Part shown: one piece after another, positions 6,957 through 10,487 of the stretch
How positions within the stretch are numbered: position 1 is the first letter of the stretch
Layout of the letters: each line of letters starts with the position of its first letter
Origin: Phycisphaeraceae bacterium
Lineage (GTDB): Bacteria > Planctomycetota > Phycisphaerae > Phycisphaerales > Phycisphaeraceae
DNA length: 11,879 bases
NCBI GenBank assembly: GCA_016763955.1
Contig: JAESSU010000122.1
Coordinates: forward strand, 1-11,879
Direction: 5' to 3'
Made by a program: the position numbers and the translations under genes
Notes under the pieces: generated by a model
Told to the model about the DNA's origin: nothing
Seen by the model: only the letters and a program-made list of their open reading frames with translations
Databases searched by the model: none

Positions 6957-7036
6957 GTTTTTAATTTGCCGTAGCAATCAGACTAAAATTAAGTCCGGCT
7001 CTACGGATAAAACTCACGACACTAGGAGGCGTCTTG

Positions 7037-7654
7037 ATGACCCGCAAATCAATCTTTATTTCAGCCCTGACATTATTCTTTAGCTTAACGGGCATGCTCA
7101 ATGCTCAAACGACACAGCCTGCGACACAATCTGCGACTCAGCCTGCAGGTAAACCCGCTATGACCCAGCCCGCCAGACCTGCTAATCAAGCATCAGACGT
7201 GGTGGACCAGATGATGAAGCGGATGCAAAATAAGCAGCCCGTCGTTGAGCCCACTAGGCGACCTGCTGCGAGTGCAACCGAAAAACGGCCTGCACTTTCG
7301 CCCTCACCTAAGATTGACTTGGACTCTAAAGTTCTTGGCATCGCGCCGGGTATGCCCAAGCCCAAGCTTCGTCGTGAAGGTGAATTTGTAGTCAATCGCC
7401 AAGGCCGTCTGCTGCGATCCAATGATGGACAGAACATGATTTTTGCTTACAAGTCCGACAGTAAAACTCAGTCCGATCCCCCCATGATCGTTGTGCCCTG
7501 TCAGTTGTTACAGAACATGGAAGAAATGATGCTCGAGCGTGGAGACCAAATTGGCTTTTCCATCACCGGTCAAATTCTTAGCTACCATGGCACCAATTAC
7601 ATTCTCCCCACAATGATGAAGCCTTCAATCGACATGGGTAATTTGGGGAACTAA
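7037..7654 (+). CDS. Secreted protein with TQPA-type repeats, function unknown
   Basis: 205 residues. The ATG at 7037 has a near-perfect AGGAGG (7024-7029) seven nt upstream; an adjacent in-frame TTG at 7034 would be too close. The signal peptide is residues 1-23 (MTRKSIF, hydrophobic core, LNA|QTT). Residues 24-50 are a low-complexity stretch of TQPA/TQSA/TQPAR units, probably extended in the periplasm. A Pro/Ala-rich linker continues to about 95. The conserved-looking part is 97-192: LDSKVLGIAPGMPKPKLRREGEF, then a hydrophilic 'RQGRLLRS' turn, DPPMIVVPCQLLQNMEE and a beta-type GFSITGQILSYHGTNYILP ending. The short strands and 'itG.i..Y.g.nYilp' ending suggest a small OB-like or beta-barrel domain. 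I cannot name a family with certainty. It ends 67 nt before a strong terminator. Confidence 0.78.
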   Translation: MTRKSIFISALTLFFSLTGMLNAQTTQPATQSATQPAGKPAMTQPARPANQASDVVDQMMKRMQNKQPVVEPTRRPAASATEKRPALSPSPKIDLDSKVLGIAPGMPKPKLRREGEFVVNRQGRLLRSNDGQNMIFAYKSDSKTQSDPPMIVVPCQLLQNMEEMMLERGDQIGFSITGQILSYHGTNYILPTMMKPSIDMGNLGN

Positions 7655-7721: not shown

Positions 7722-7766
7722 ATCCCACTGATGATCTTTTTAAAGGTTTCTCAGTGGGATTTTTTT
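7722..7766 (+). terminator. Strong rho-independent terminator after the two exported-protein genes
   Basis: ATCCCACTGA (7722-7731) pairs perfectly with TCAGTGGGAT (7751-7760), 10 bp with a 19-nt loop, followed by six T (7761-7766). It lies 67 nt after the stop at 7654. Its 3' arm overlaps the last codons of the minus-strand frame at 7751-8182. Confidence 0.9.
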
Positions 7767-7872: not shown

Positions 7873-8074
7873 TGTAGACGATCAGGGCAAACGCATGTAC
7901 CCCTATATTAGCGAACTAGGCTGTGTCAGCCCGTTTTTGCCTCTCGGTCAAGTGTTCAATCAGTTTGCAAAGTATTTTGGGCACAACATTTTTGACCTGC
8001 GGTCAATTCCGTGTTGACACAACACGGCTCGCCAAGACAATTTTCGGTACATGCGTTTGCCCTGTATAGGTGAT
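7873..8074. repeat. Imperfect 10-bp direct repeats flanking the insertion (target-site duplication)
   Basis: TGTAGACGAT (7873-7882) and TATAGGTGAT (8065-8074) directly abut the two inverted termini. They match at 7 of 10 positions, and the three differences are all transitions. This is what an aged target-site duplication would look like. A 10-bp length is also the one that keeps the surrounding frame intact. Confidence 0.55.
7883..8064. mobile_element. 182-bp MITE-like element with 19-bp perfect terminal inverted repeats
   Basis: The left end is CAGGGCAAACGCATGTACC (7883-7901); the right end (8046-8064) is its exact reverse complement. Pairing stops abruptly at both sides (7882/8065 and 7902/8045 do not pair), so these are defined termini. 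The inside holds three short perfect stems: GGCTG/CAGCC (7919-7931), TTGACC/GGTCAA (7992-8006) and CCGTGTTG/CAACACGG (8009-8027). On the minus strand, between 8002 and 7919, there is a 28-codon open stretch that reads like the start of a protein (VPKILCKLIEHLTERQKRAD), possibly the remnant of a transposase N-terminus. The element cannot encode a transposase and would depend on one elsewhere. Ends of about 18-20 bp with 10-bp duplications suit IS4-type elements; that family assignment is inference. Confidence 0.65.
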
Positions 8075-8273: not shown

Positions 8274-10487
8274 TCAGTGGGACGATGTGTAGGGTTTGAT
8301 CGTGACTTGGCGGATGAGCCCGGGAAAATTAGGCCATACTTTTGCCCTTGAGCCATGCCCCTTAAACTCTACGCCCAGTGCAATCGGAGCTTCGTTTTTA
8401 GTTGAGATGGGTTTGGGTAGCGTGACCACGATAGGTTTATTGTCATCAATGCTCAGCGTTGCGATGCGAAGCTCACCTGCCTTGTCGGGCGTGAGTGTGA
8501 TGTGAACAGAAGTCCACTGATCCAAGGACACTTTGGCGGTCGTGGGAATCCAAATGGGCGCATTGCCATTCTGGTTGGCGAACTGTAGCAGGAGCGTCTG
8601 GTCTTGAGCCATCAGTAAACGAAACCCTTCACTGTAATTTCCAAATGACATCAAGGCACAATGGGCCCGTTTTTTAAACGAATTTGTCACCTTGAAGGTG
8701 ATGTCCAATTGCATCCCTTCAGAAAGAATTTTGCTCCATAGGTTTTGAGGATTGCTGCCTGATGCTGATGTTGCTCGACAATTCAGTGCGCCATTTACAG
8801 ATGCATTCTTGATGACAGGACGTCCAATTTTTAGTAACAGCGGGAACTGCCCCGCAGTGTAGATCAACCCGTTGGACAATGTATCAGAAGATAAATTTGA
8901 AAAGTCAGCCGTAAACCATGTCGATGTATCTGCATTGTTGCCAGCAATGGCCAACGGACGATCTGTCACGCAAAAGTTTGAGGGGCGATATAGTTGATGC
9001 AGGTAGCCGCTGTCACGGTCGGTCCATCGCAGAGTCGTGCTGTAGGTGTGCGGAAACGTGCCTTTACCTTGTGGCAAAGCATACGTCCCTGTTAATTGGT
9101 GTGTGTCTTGGTTAAAGGTAAGTTCCATCACCTGTGGATATGACTTGCGTGATTGATCGTGACTTAATAGTAAGACCGCTCCCCGACTTGGGCTTAGACT
9201 TGGTTGCGGGTCATCCGTGAGTTGTACTTGATAGCTAAGCGTTGGAGTCGGGCCTAGGATGATGCCTGTTTGACGCTCGGTGGCAGGGGCCAAGGTCTGG
9301 TTCTCTTTTGTCGTTGCCAAGCGATAGGAAGTTAAAACCACTTGGGGCACGTCGAGTGCCGGGTTACGAAAATAGGCTGCTGAGTTGTTTAGGATCGGTT
9401 GAAATAGATGGTGTACGGAACGGGAAATCGTGGTATGCCAAGCGGTGGCAATCATGCCTCCGCAGTTTCGCTTAGCCGCATATCGGGCGAACATGGCAAT
9501 GCCTTTGTCGTTGTACCAGGTGGTTCCCCAAACATCTTTGAATCCCATGGTTTGGAAATAATCCACACTGGGATATTCGCCGCTGGGAGGAGCCCCGTAA
9601 TGCCAGTCTGCAATGATGATTTTGTTACGATGTTTGAGGTCATTGATTGCAGTGAGTGTGCTAGGGGGCGTTGCTTGTTGACTAAGCCATGATGCGTGGC
9701 CGCCTTGAATGCGCGGGTCATGGTCGAACCCGATCACGCCATGGCCGGGCTTACTGAGTTCTTTACCAAGGAGCATGTCTCCCCAGAATATAGGGGTAAT
9801 ACCTTTAGCCAGGAGTCGCTTAGTACGGCGATTAAGCAGTTGAGCAAACAGTTTGGGAACCGTCGTGTTCAATGCCTTGGCACAGATGTCCAGATCATCT
9901 ACCGCAATCTCATCGATGCCAAGAAGCATGTAGCGGGGCGGTGTCTCACCGTGTAAAGCAATGAAATAATCGATCATGGGTAACTCAATAGCATCATAAG
10001 CATCCTGTCCATCAGGGAAACGATAAGCTGGATTGAGAATGCCATTGGCCCAAGCTTCTTTGCCCGTGACGAGCAGGCCGGGGTGTTTCTTGGCTAGCTC
10101 TGTCAGTAGTGCTTTATGTTTACCGATGACTTTGACCTCAAGGATCAATTCCAATCCCGCTTGTCGAGCATAAGCGATCAGTTCCGTGACTTGCGATGGG
10201 GCCCACTTCTCAAAGCGGACTTGCCCCGGCAAGGGGATGGTGTATGCAGCCTGAAAAATTCCGCCAGTATGCAGAATAAAGGTGTTGTATCCCAGTTGGC
10301 TGGCCTGATCGATGAGCCCTCGGTAGAAGGCCGGAGTTTTTAATTGCGGGCGAAAGGGGACGTGAATCGCTCGAATCGCAAAAGGACTCACTTGCTCGGC
10401 GCCCCATGTTTTGTTGTGGACACCTAGCAATGTGAAGAGGGCGATTAATACGCTAACACTCACTTGCCGATTGATTGATCGTTGCAA
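8274..10487 (-). CDS. Secreted GH20-like glycoside hydrolase with C-terminal lectin-like domain
   Basis: 737 residues. The start is a TTG at 10487 with AAGGA nine nt upstream; this gives a proper signal peptide (basic MQRSINRQ, hydrophobic core 10-22, WGA|EQ near 30). A GTG eight codons in is the alternative. Residues 35-375 form a TIM-barrel like family 20 beta-hexosaminidases. AIHVPFRPQLKT and LGYNTFILH are the first strands, and LELILEVKVIGK the next. MLLGIDEIAVDD (187-198) sits at the '[HN]xGxDE' site with D192-E193 as candidate catalytic pair. The barrel continues with TPIFWGDM (231-238), IIIADWHYG (290-298), WGTTWYND (320-327) and MIATAWHT (345-352). Residues 380-560 are beta-rich linkers. 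About 580-735 look like a laminin-G/concanavalin-type lectin fold (LDITFKVTN, GFRLLMAQD, QWTSVHITLTPD, IRQVTIKPY). It probably acts on exported or environmental glycans with terminal amino sugars. The substrate is not deducible. Confidence 0.7.
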   Translation of the reverse strand: MQRSINRQVSVSVLIALFTLLGVHNKTWGAEQVSPFAIRAIHVPFRPQLKTPAFYRGLIDQASQLGYNTFILHTGGIFQAAYTIPLPGQVRFEKWAPSQVTELIAYARQAGLELILEVKVIGKHKALLTELAKKHPGLLVTGKEAWANGILNPAYRFPDGQDAYDAIELPMIDYFIALHGETPPRYMLLGIDEIAVDDLDICAKALNTTVPKLFAQLLNRRTKRLLAKGITPIFWGDMLLGKELSKPGHGVIGFDHDPRIQGGHASWLSQQATPPSTLTAINDLKHRNKIIIADWHYGAPPSGEYPSVDYFQTMGFKDVWGTTWYNDKGIAMFARYAAKRNCGGMIATAWHTTISRSVHHLFQPILNNSAAYFRNPALDVPQVVLTSYRLATTKENQTLAPATERQTGIILGPTPTLSYQVQLTDDPQPSLSPSRGAVLLLSHDQSRKSYPQVMELTFNQDTHQLTGTYALPQGKGTFPHTYSTTLRWTDRDSGYLHQLYRPSNFCVTDRPLAIAGNNADTSTWFTADFSNLSSDTLSNGLIYTAGQFPLLLKIGRPVIKNASVNGALNCRATSASGSNPQNLWSKILSEGMQLDITFKVTNSFKKRAHCALMSFGNYSEGFRLLMAQDQTLLLQFANQNGNAPIWIPTTAKVSLDQWTSVHITLTPDKAGELRIATLSIDDNKPIVVTLPKPISTKNEAPIALGVEFKGHGSRAKVWPNFPGLIRQVTIKPYTSSH

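Follow-up and report, generated by a model that had tools for sequence, protein, structure and literature searches.

A short genomic repeat with ISAs1-type ends and a REPIN-like core, very probably a chimeric MITE, in a Phycisphaeraceae bacterium

Which mobile system supplied the ends, and which the interior, of a 182-base gene-less element that begins and finishes in a perfect inverted repeat? The question is raised by contig 550 (11,879 nucleotides, analysed at its full length and referred to below as the window) of a 3.58-Mb Phycisphaeraceae genome, assembled in 559 contigs and 78.5% complete. Our answer, which we consider very probable, is that window positions 7883–8064 are a chimeric MITE, in which ISAs1 ends enclose a REPIN-like core of the RAYT-linked kind. 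The features are laid out as follows.

7873–7882, no strand: left copy of the 10-bp target-site duplication, TGTAGACGAT, decayed (7/10 identical to 8065–8074)
7883–7901, plus strand: left terminal inverted repeat of ISAs1 type (perfect 19-bp inverted repeat)
7908–7951, plus strand: left REP unit, degenerate, with box TTAGCGAA, hairpin GGCTG-TGT-CAGCC and a decayed second hairpin (assigned from alignment A2 of complete copies)
7952–7991, no strand: spacer separating the REP units, with a TTTGCAAA palindrome in the window's subfamily (alignment A2)
7992–8035, minus strand: right REP unit, with GGCGAG box, 8-bp hairpin CCGTGTTG-TGT-CAACACGG and second hairpin TTGACC-GCA-GGTCAA (assigned from the match to covariance model R1)
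8046–8064, minus strand: right terminal inverted repeat of ISAs1 type (perfect 19-bp inverted repeat, identity to an ISAs1 end)
8065–8074, no strand: right copy of the 10-bp target-site duplication, TATAGGTGAT (flank comparison)

The two 19-bp arms (7883–7901 and 8046–8064) are 100% complementary, and other copies end alike. Among 1000 dinucleotide-preserving shuffles of the surrounding 551-bp region, none reaches an inverted repeat of 19 bp and one reaches 14 bp, which bears out an earlier note, made from the letters of this stretch, in its claims that the boundaries are exact and that a chance match is unlikely. The flanking 10-mers TGTAGACGAT and TATAGGTGAT agree at 7 of 10 positions and differ by three transitions. 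Three perfect hairpins, already seen by the earlier note, lie inside the element (CCGTGTTG/CAACACGG, TTGACC/GGTCAA and GGCTG/CAGCC), and its single strand folds with z = −6.8 as RNA and −6.0 as DNA, a stability equalled by none of 200 shuffles. The neighbours are an ORF at 7034–7654(+) on one side and a convergent ORF at 8274–10487(−) on the other. Upstream of the insertion, at 7722–7760, an imperfect inverted repeat is followed by a T run; it probably serves as terminator to the first of these ORFs, which ends at 7654.

The window's genome contains many relatives of the element. A 571-bp query returns at least 52 rows at E ≤ 0.001 (the best 40 of 100 candidates were scored). The listed rows comprise 40 main matches, i.e., the window itself and 39 others with 74–94% identity, and 12 secondary rows, 11 of which are one arm re-matched in the opposite orientation. 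Twenty-four of the 39 other main matches extend to within 6 bp of both element ends, and the remainder are partial. The end pattern, at three mismatches or fewer, has 70 sites in this genome versus none for the reversed control. Several copies lie at contig ends, so the true copy number may be higher.

To measure the target duplication, flanks were compared at lengths of 6–14 bp for 27 of the 28 element rows, one nested pairing being left out. Mean flank identity is 0.678 at length 10, versus 0.20–0.31 at the other lengths and 0.24–0.26 in control flanks from mismatched copy pairs. At 10 bp, an identity of at least 7/10 is reached by 19 of the 27 copies and by 0.85% of 702 mismatched pairs, and one of at least 9/10 by 10 of the 27 copies and 0.14% of the pairs. 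The window's own 7/10 match is a decayed example of this 10-bp duplication, just as the earlier note had read it from a single copy. None of the 23 testable copies (four of the 27 had too little flank) interrupts an open frame of at least 120 codons, versus 712 of 920 random positions at the same loci. In sum, sharp-ended terminal inverted repeats recur in many dispersed copies with a 10-bp target-site duplication, no transposase gene is present, and the ends are common to autonomous elements of related genomes; the window element is a copy of a real MITE family, in agreement with the proposal of a non-autonomous MITE-like element. An immobile conserved structured RNA or terminator would suit the very stable fold, the position of all 23 tested copies outside long open frames and the terminator-like hairpin at 7722–7760 nearby, but not a dispersal of copies among unrelated flanks, with 10-bp duplications; the window also lacks any Rfam match at gathering thresholds, and we give this explanation practically no credence.

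Individual loci of the window's genome (G000) depart from the common form. At L020 (G000:C86:6124–6439), about 130 bp that include CACTTCCGGGGGCGTG have been inserted into a MITE copy; this motif recurs in like surroundings at L011 and L359, and a second small repeat family marked by CACTTCCGGGGGCGTG seems to be present. Three ISAs1-type ends follow one another in the same orientation, with 67-bp spacing, at L014 1366–1518 (G000:C167), which is a tandem duplication of one MITE end together with adjacent sequence. A minimal copy of 50 bp, having two ISAs1-type ends and nearly all of the core deleted, lies at about 890–945 of L064 (G000:C448).

The parent of the ends can be named from full-length elements elsewhere. 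The end pattern, at one mismatch or fewer, is found in 8 of 51 genomes of the family. In G031 (Planctomycetota BP4.bin14), two such ends lie 1304 bp apart, flanked by a 10/10 duplication and with a transposase between them (L091/L275), which is DDE_Tnp_1_assoc plus DDE_Tnp_1 in Pfam and ISAs1 in NCBIfam. The ISAs1 model NF033564 (cut-off 70) scores 397 bits at L091, 374 at L279 and 379 at L294. The full-length element at L279 measures 1505 bp and has a 10/10 duplication, that at L294 measures 1499 bp with flanks agreeing at 2/10, and that at L301, whose frame is broken and which is ISAs1-like by eye only, has a 10/10 duplication. The window's end is identical over 17 nt to the ends of L091 and L279, and its 19-bp end is identical across all 19 nt to the right end of L294. 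ISfinder gives ISAs1 a target duplication of 8–10 bp, a range into which the 10-bp duplications of the MITE and of L275, L279 and L301 fit. Since the full-length elements with these ends encode ISAs1 transposases, the parental type is ISAs1.

Both further copies in the host genome and, in related genomes, full-length elements with the same ends and a transposase gene (L091, L279 and L294) thus exist, as the earlier note had proposed to look for. Its guess at an IS4-type parent has to be replaced, since IS4 models give at most 19.2 bits (cut-off 115) for the parents' transposases; the transposase N-terminal remnant that it suspected inside the element likewise finds no support, tblastn against two ISAs1 transposases giving E = 0.88 at best. 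A full-length parent in the host itself did not turn up: neither the window's genome nor the other three of the genus yielded an ISAs1 relative when searched with the G031 transposase, and, with the window's assembly being 78.5% complete in 559 contigs, the ISAs1 gene may be missing rather than absent. A DDE_Tnp_1 gene of the same genome at C225 (L107) was considered as parent and rejected as IS5-type; its 2.3-kb locus has no ISAs1-type end at three mismatches or fewer.

The interior points to a different system. When the 182 bp alone are searched in the genus mates G049 and G050, matches are limited to element positions of about 107–152, and in at least four cases they form inverted pairs 74–94 bp apart, start to start; neither genome has an ISAs1-type end at one mismatch or fewer. 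The free unit begins with GGCGAG, followed by the hairpin CCGNNNNN-TGT-NNNNNCGG and by a second hairpin, e.g., TTGAGC-nnn-GCTCAA. Sites of the unit pattern number 43 in G049 and 78 in G050, with none in the controls. The pattern GCGAGCCNNNNNGTGTCNNNNNGG occurs in 18 of the 51 genomes, with 2 control matches in total, and in at least four of the 18 (G013, G021, G024 and G025) the stems of the matches are unpaired and look like chance.

From 30 listed free units of the genus, 19 (17 distinct) were chosen for alignment A1, six units of the window's own genome being left out by design and five as divergent or without the second hairpin. In A1, 97.9% of cells pair, a percentage favoured for the second helix by the omission of those five units, and both partners vary in 9 of the 14 pairs; the covariation score is 0.536, versus 0.162 when shuffled, and none of 500 shuffles is as high. 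The covariance model R1 was built on these 19 units, which come from G048, G049 and G050, none from the window's genome and none with an ISAs1-type end at three mismatches or fewer within 200 bp. Four of them have an end-like site with four mismatches 67–170 bp away, which we take for chance, and across 13 G049/G050 loci a single end-like site with exactly three mismatches (L157 1963) lies about 420 bp from the unit.

R1 matches window 7992–8035(−) with 62.7 bits (E 1.5e-15); its partial match to the left arm (7919–7931, 9.9 bits, E 0.11) is not significant alone. Across the window's genome, R1 has at least 78 sites (the best 150 of 1508 candidates were scored), 14 inverted pairs included, so copies that are better preserved show the doublet clearly. 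The unit is thus a hairpin with a conserved 5′ foot and with covariation among the 19 selected free units; the foot is GGCGAG rather than the canonical GT[AG]G. Judged by its sequence, the interior of the element is an inverted pair of REP units, i.e., a REPIN-like doublet. The earlier note saw the internal hairpins and missed that they are assignable to such a pair, of the RAYT-linked kind.

The link to RAYT comes from Y1 genes. Y1_Tnp matches are found in all four genomes of the genus, and REP-type units lie on both sides of the gene at 4 of the 12 Y1 loci examined, one per genome (L194, L195, L197 and L200). At L195, a gene of 170 aa is enclosed by a pair of units on each side. Its protein scores 30.7 bits against PF01797 (cut-off 23), and several relatives carry the JGI name REP element-mobilizing transposase RayT. 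An alignment of 22 RAYT-like proteins has invariant H98-V-H100, W138-W-A and Y160/Q164. The NCBIfam RAYT equivalog model NF047646 gives 18.4 bits, under its cut-off of 80. A profile search of PDB sequences yields weak matches to ISHp608 and other Y1 transposases (best E 0.0025), a single-sequence search of PDB sequences yields no match, and the structure model of a close RAYT relative (P0001) has a mean pLDDT of 88.5. Within the window's own genome, the unit adjoining the RAYT-like gene on C337 (L197 2114–2145) is identical over 32 nt to window 8008–8039, and no ISAs1-type end at four mismatches or fewer occurs in the 2.8 kb of locus L197. The gene itself (L197 1471–1988, G000:C337) is split into two 102-aa ORFs that overlap in different frames, owing to either decay or an assembly error.

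We note a further population in G009 (99% complete), where 72 GCGAGCC hairpin units (e.g., L162 1501–1558) include many head-to-head pairs about 34 nt apart, with stems that change, and are REPIN-like; the Y1 loci examined in that genome have no GCGAGCC unit alongside.

Ends and doublet are joined in one family. Alignment A2 takes in 25 of the 28 element rows (those of 316, 251 and 129 bp are left out), and a recognisable doublet lies between the ends in all 25 of these complete copies. The CTTGGCGAG box is found, at 8/9 or better, just inside 74 of 95 distinct end sites in the window's genome, versus 30 of 2000 random stretches. By eye, ten low-scoring end sites are four chance-like ones, five divergent copies, of which the window's left end is one, and one core loss (L064). 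R1 also matches all seven MITE loci that were tested in the sister genome G048 (Phycisphaerales UBA7800), and none of 15 loci outside the genus, of which 12 have MITEs and 3 have full-length elements. Free units are scarce in the window's genome: 9 of 20 re-examined loci (L355, L357–L361, L363, L365 and L369) lack an end at four mismatches or fewer within 250 bp, and in three of these (L360, L361 and L363) a decayed end is visible by eye. R1 sites beyond the 20 fall in copies already seen. A 502-bp element of G048 (L269) was considered as a double element and rejected, as its sequence includes a stretch of N.

The usual explanation of a MITE is internal deletion in a parent IS, and the window element could by the same token be an ordinary ISAs1 MITE, with a palindromic interior that bears no relation to REPs. 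G005 and G006 (Phycisphaeraceae B1Sed10_187; G015 of the same set is Phycisphaeraceae coassembly_bin.18) offer a parallel. Their ISAs1-type MITEs, mostly 150–190 bp long and several with 10/10 duplications (e.g., L239, L256 and L291), also contain an inverted palindromic pair, with a GGTGGCATGGTCAGC core and a GGTGG foot, which is unrelated in sequence to that of the window and restricted to its genus (40 and 444 core-motif sites, near control level in the other 49 genomes); a palindromic core alone therefore needs no REP origin. Two complete pairs without an end (four mismatches or fewer, 80 bp) occur at the G005 loci examined (L377/L379 and L383/L385). G006 yielded no Y1 gene, and the single one in G005 has no core motif alongside; with no RAYT link found, we do not call this core a REPIN. 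MITEs of G031 have a third type of interior, in two copies. Outside planctomycetes, the same ISAs1-type ends recur, together with a 10/10 duplication, on an element of 145 bp in a Desulfobacula MAG (L296 6494–6638). For the window's family, an origin by internal deletion is nevertheless improbable: R1, built on units without nearby ends, matches the interior at 62.7 bits, the 32-nt identity is to a unit adjoining a RAYT-like gene of the same genome, and the units are present in genomes without such ends at one mismatch or fewer.

The opposite simplification, in which RAYT mobilises a REPIN and the outer 30 bp merely resemble IS ends, draws on the REP doublet of the core and on the RAYT-like gene with the same units at C337. 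It would leave unexplained that the 10-bp target duplications directly adjoin the ISAs1-type ends, that these ends match ISAs1 elements over 17–19 nt, and that the free REP units of G048–G050 do without them. No target duplication is known from single-strand transposition of the IS200/RAYT type, and we consider this reading highly unlikely.

Both systems might still be at work, with ISAs1 moving the whole and RAYT acting on the inner doublet, shuffling or re-seeding cores. Within MITE copies, the hairpins are 92% paired overall and 97% of cells are paired in helices 3 and 4; the right arm, intact in most copies (the left is often broken), and the RAYT-like gene with matching units in the genome would agree with such a dual arrangement. 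Against it stands the covariation within MITE copies, 0.099 versus 0.091 shuffled, with 61 of 500 shuffles as high, so that continued function of the core is unsupported; moreover, the C337 gene is split between two frames, and the single coreless copy noticed (L064) is an asymmetric deletion and no clean excision. We regard a dual system as rather unlikely, and read a core that is paired yet does not covary as cargo decaying after capture.

For the chimeric MITE, the following course of events is proposed. An ISAs1 transposase, supplied in trans, would recognise the 16–19-bp ends, move the element and leave the 10-bp duplication; ends and duplication are both seen at the locus, and we infer that such an enzyme acted on the window copy. 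The REP doublet, identified as such from sequence, may have been inserted by RAYT into an ISAs1-derived palindrome or, alternatively, ISAs1 ends may have closed around a resident REPIN, both routes of entry being proposals. The composite would then have been amplified via ISAs1 into intergenic DNA, with the core as cargo that is now decaying. A wider reading, in which two unrelated transposition systems have merged, RAYT inserting REP doublets by single-strand transposition into the symmetric centre of ISAs1-derived palindromes and ISAs1 then dispersing the product by double-strand transposition, is tentative and rather doubtful.

Since the middle of this MITE belongs, on our reading, to another mobile system, some MITEs at least are composites of two systems. 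A chimeric MITE would offer REPINs a second way to spread that does not depend on their RAYT, and such elements may explain an older report of REP dimers within longer palindromes. Taken by themselves, the free units represent a RAYT-linked REP type of planctomycete-like bacteria that covaries well and has a non-canonical foot. Should the palindromic interiors of G005/G006 and G031 prove to be REPINs of other RAYTs, capture would have been repeated and would be a general route of MITE making.

Compared with ISAs1 insertion sequences (DDE transposase, PF13808/PF01609, NF033564), the window element has identical ends over 16–19 bp and the 10-bp duplication in common, but is 182 bp long, lacks a transposase gene and has a REP doublet, as assigned above, for its interior. 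It resembles the bacterial MITEs RUP, NEMIS, ERIC and Nezha, as portrayed in the pertinent sections of PMC3733652, in being short, non-coding, bounded by terminal inverted repeats, multicopy, intergenic and presumably moved in trans; unlike theirs, its interior goes beyond the parent's inner ends and consists of a unit that has a transposase partner of its own at other places in the genus. With the REPINs and RAYTs described in parts of Bertels and Rainey 2011 (PMC3116915) and Quentin 2018 (PMC6006769), it shares an inverted hairpin pair and units beside Y1 (HuH) genes, whereas the doublet here sits inside DDE-transposon ends with target duplications. Class 3 Y1 proteins, according to the relevant passages of Quentin et al. 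(PMC6006769), occur mainly in Planctomycetes, Acidobacteria and Proteobacteria and have atypical REPs. The motifs of the RAYT-like protein (HVH, WWA and Y-x3-Q) come near the class 3 signature given there (W[TA], Y-x4-Q), a likeness of motif only, with a Y-to-Q spacing one residue shorter; the foot box is GGCGAG here, versus GT[AG]G in REPs and CnGA in class 3 as stated in the same passages. The nearest likeness is to REP dimers in longer palindromes, GTAG-15 of Anabaena variabilis and CGTC-1 of H. neapolitanus (Di Nocera et al., PMC3733652), in which a REP dimer is centred in an outer inverted repeat; the paragraphs of that article on these families assign no IS to the outer palindromes and mention no target duplications, whereas here the ends are those of ISAs1. 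In the open-access literature, we found no description of an IS-derived MITE with a RAYT-linked REPIN core. ISAs1 ends and REP/RAYT units are each of a known kind, and we rate their combination as a new variant.
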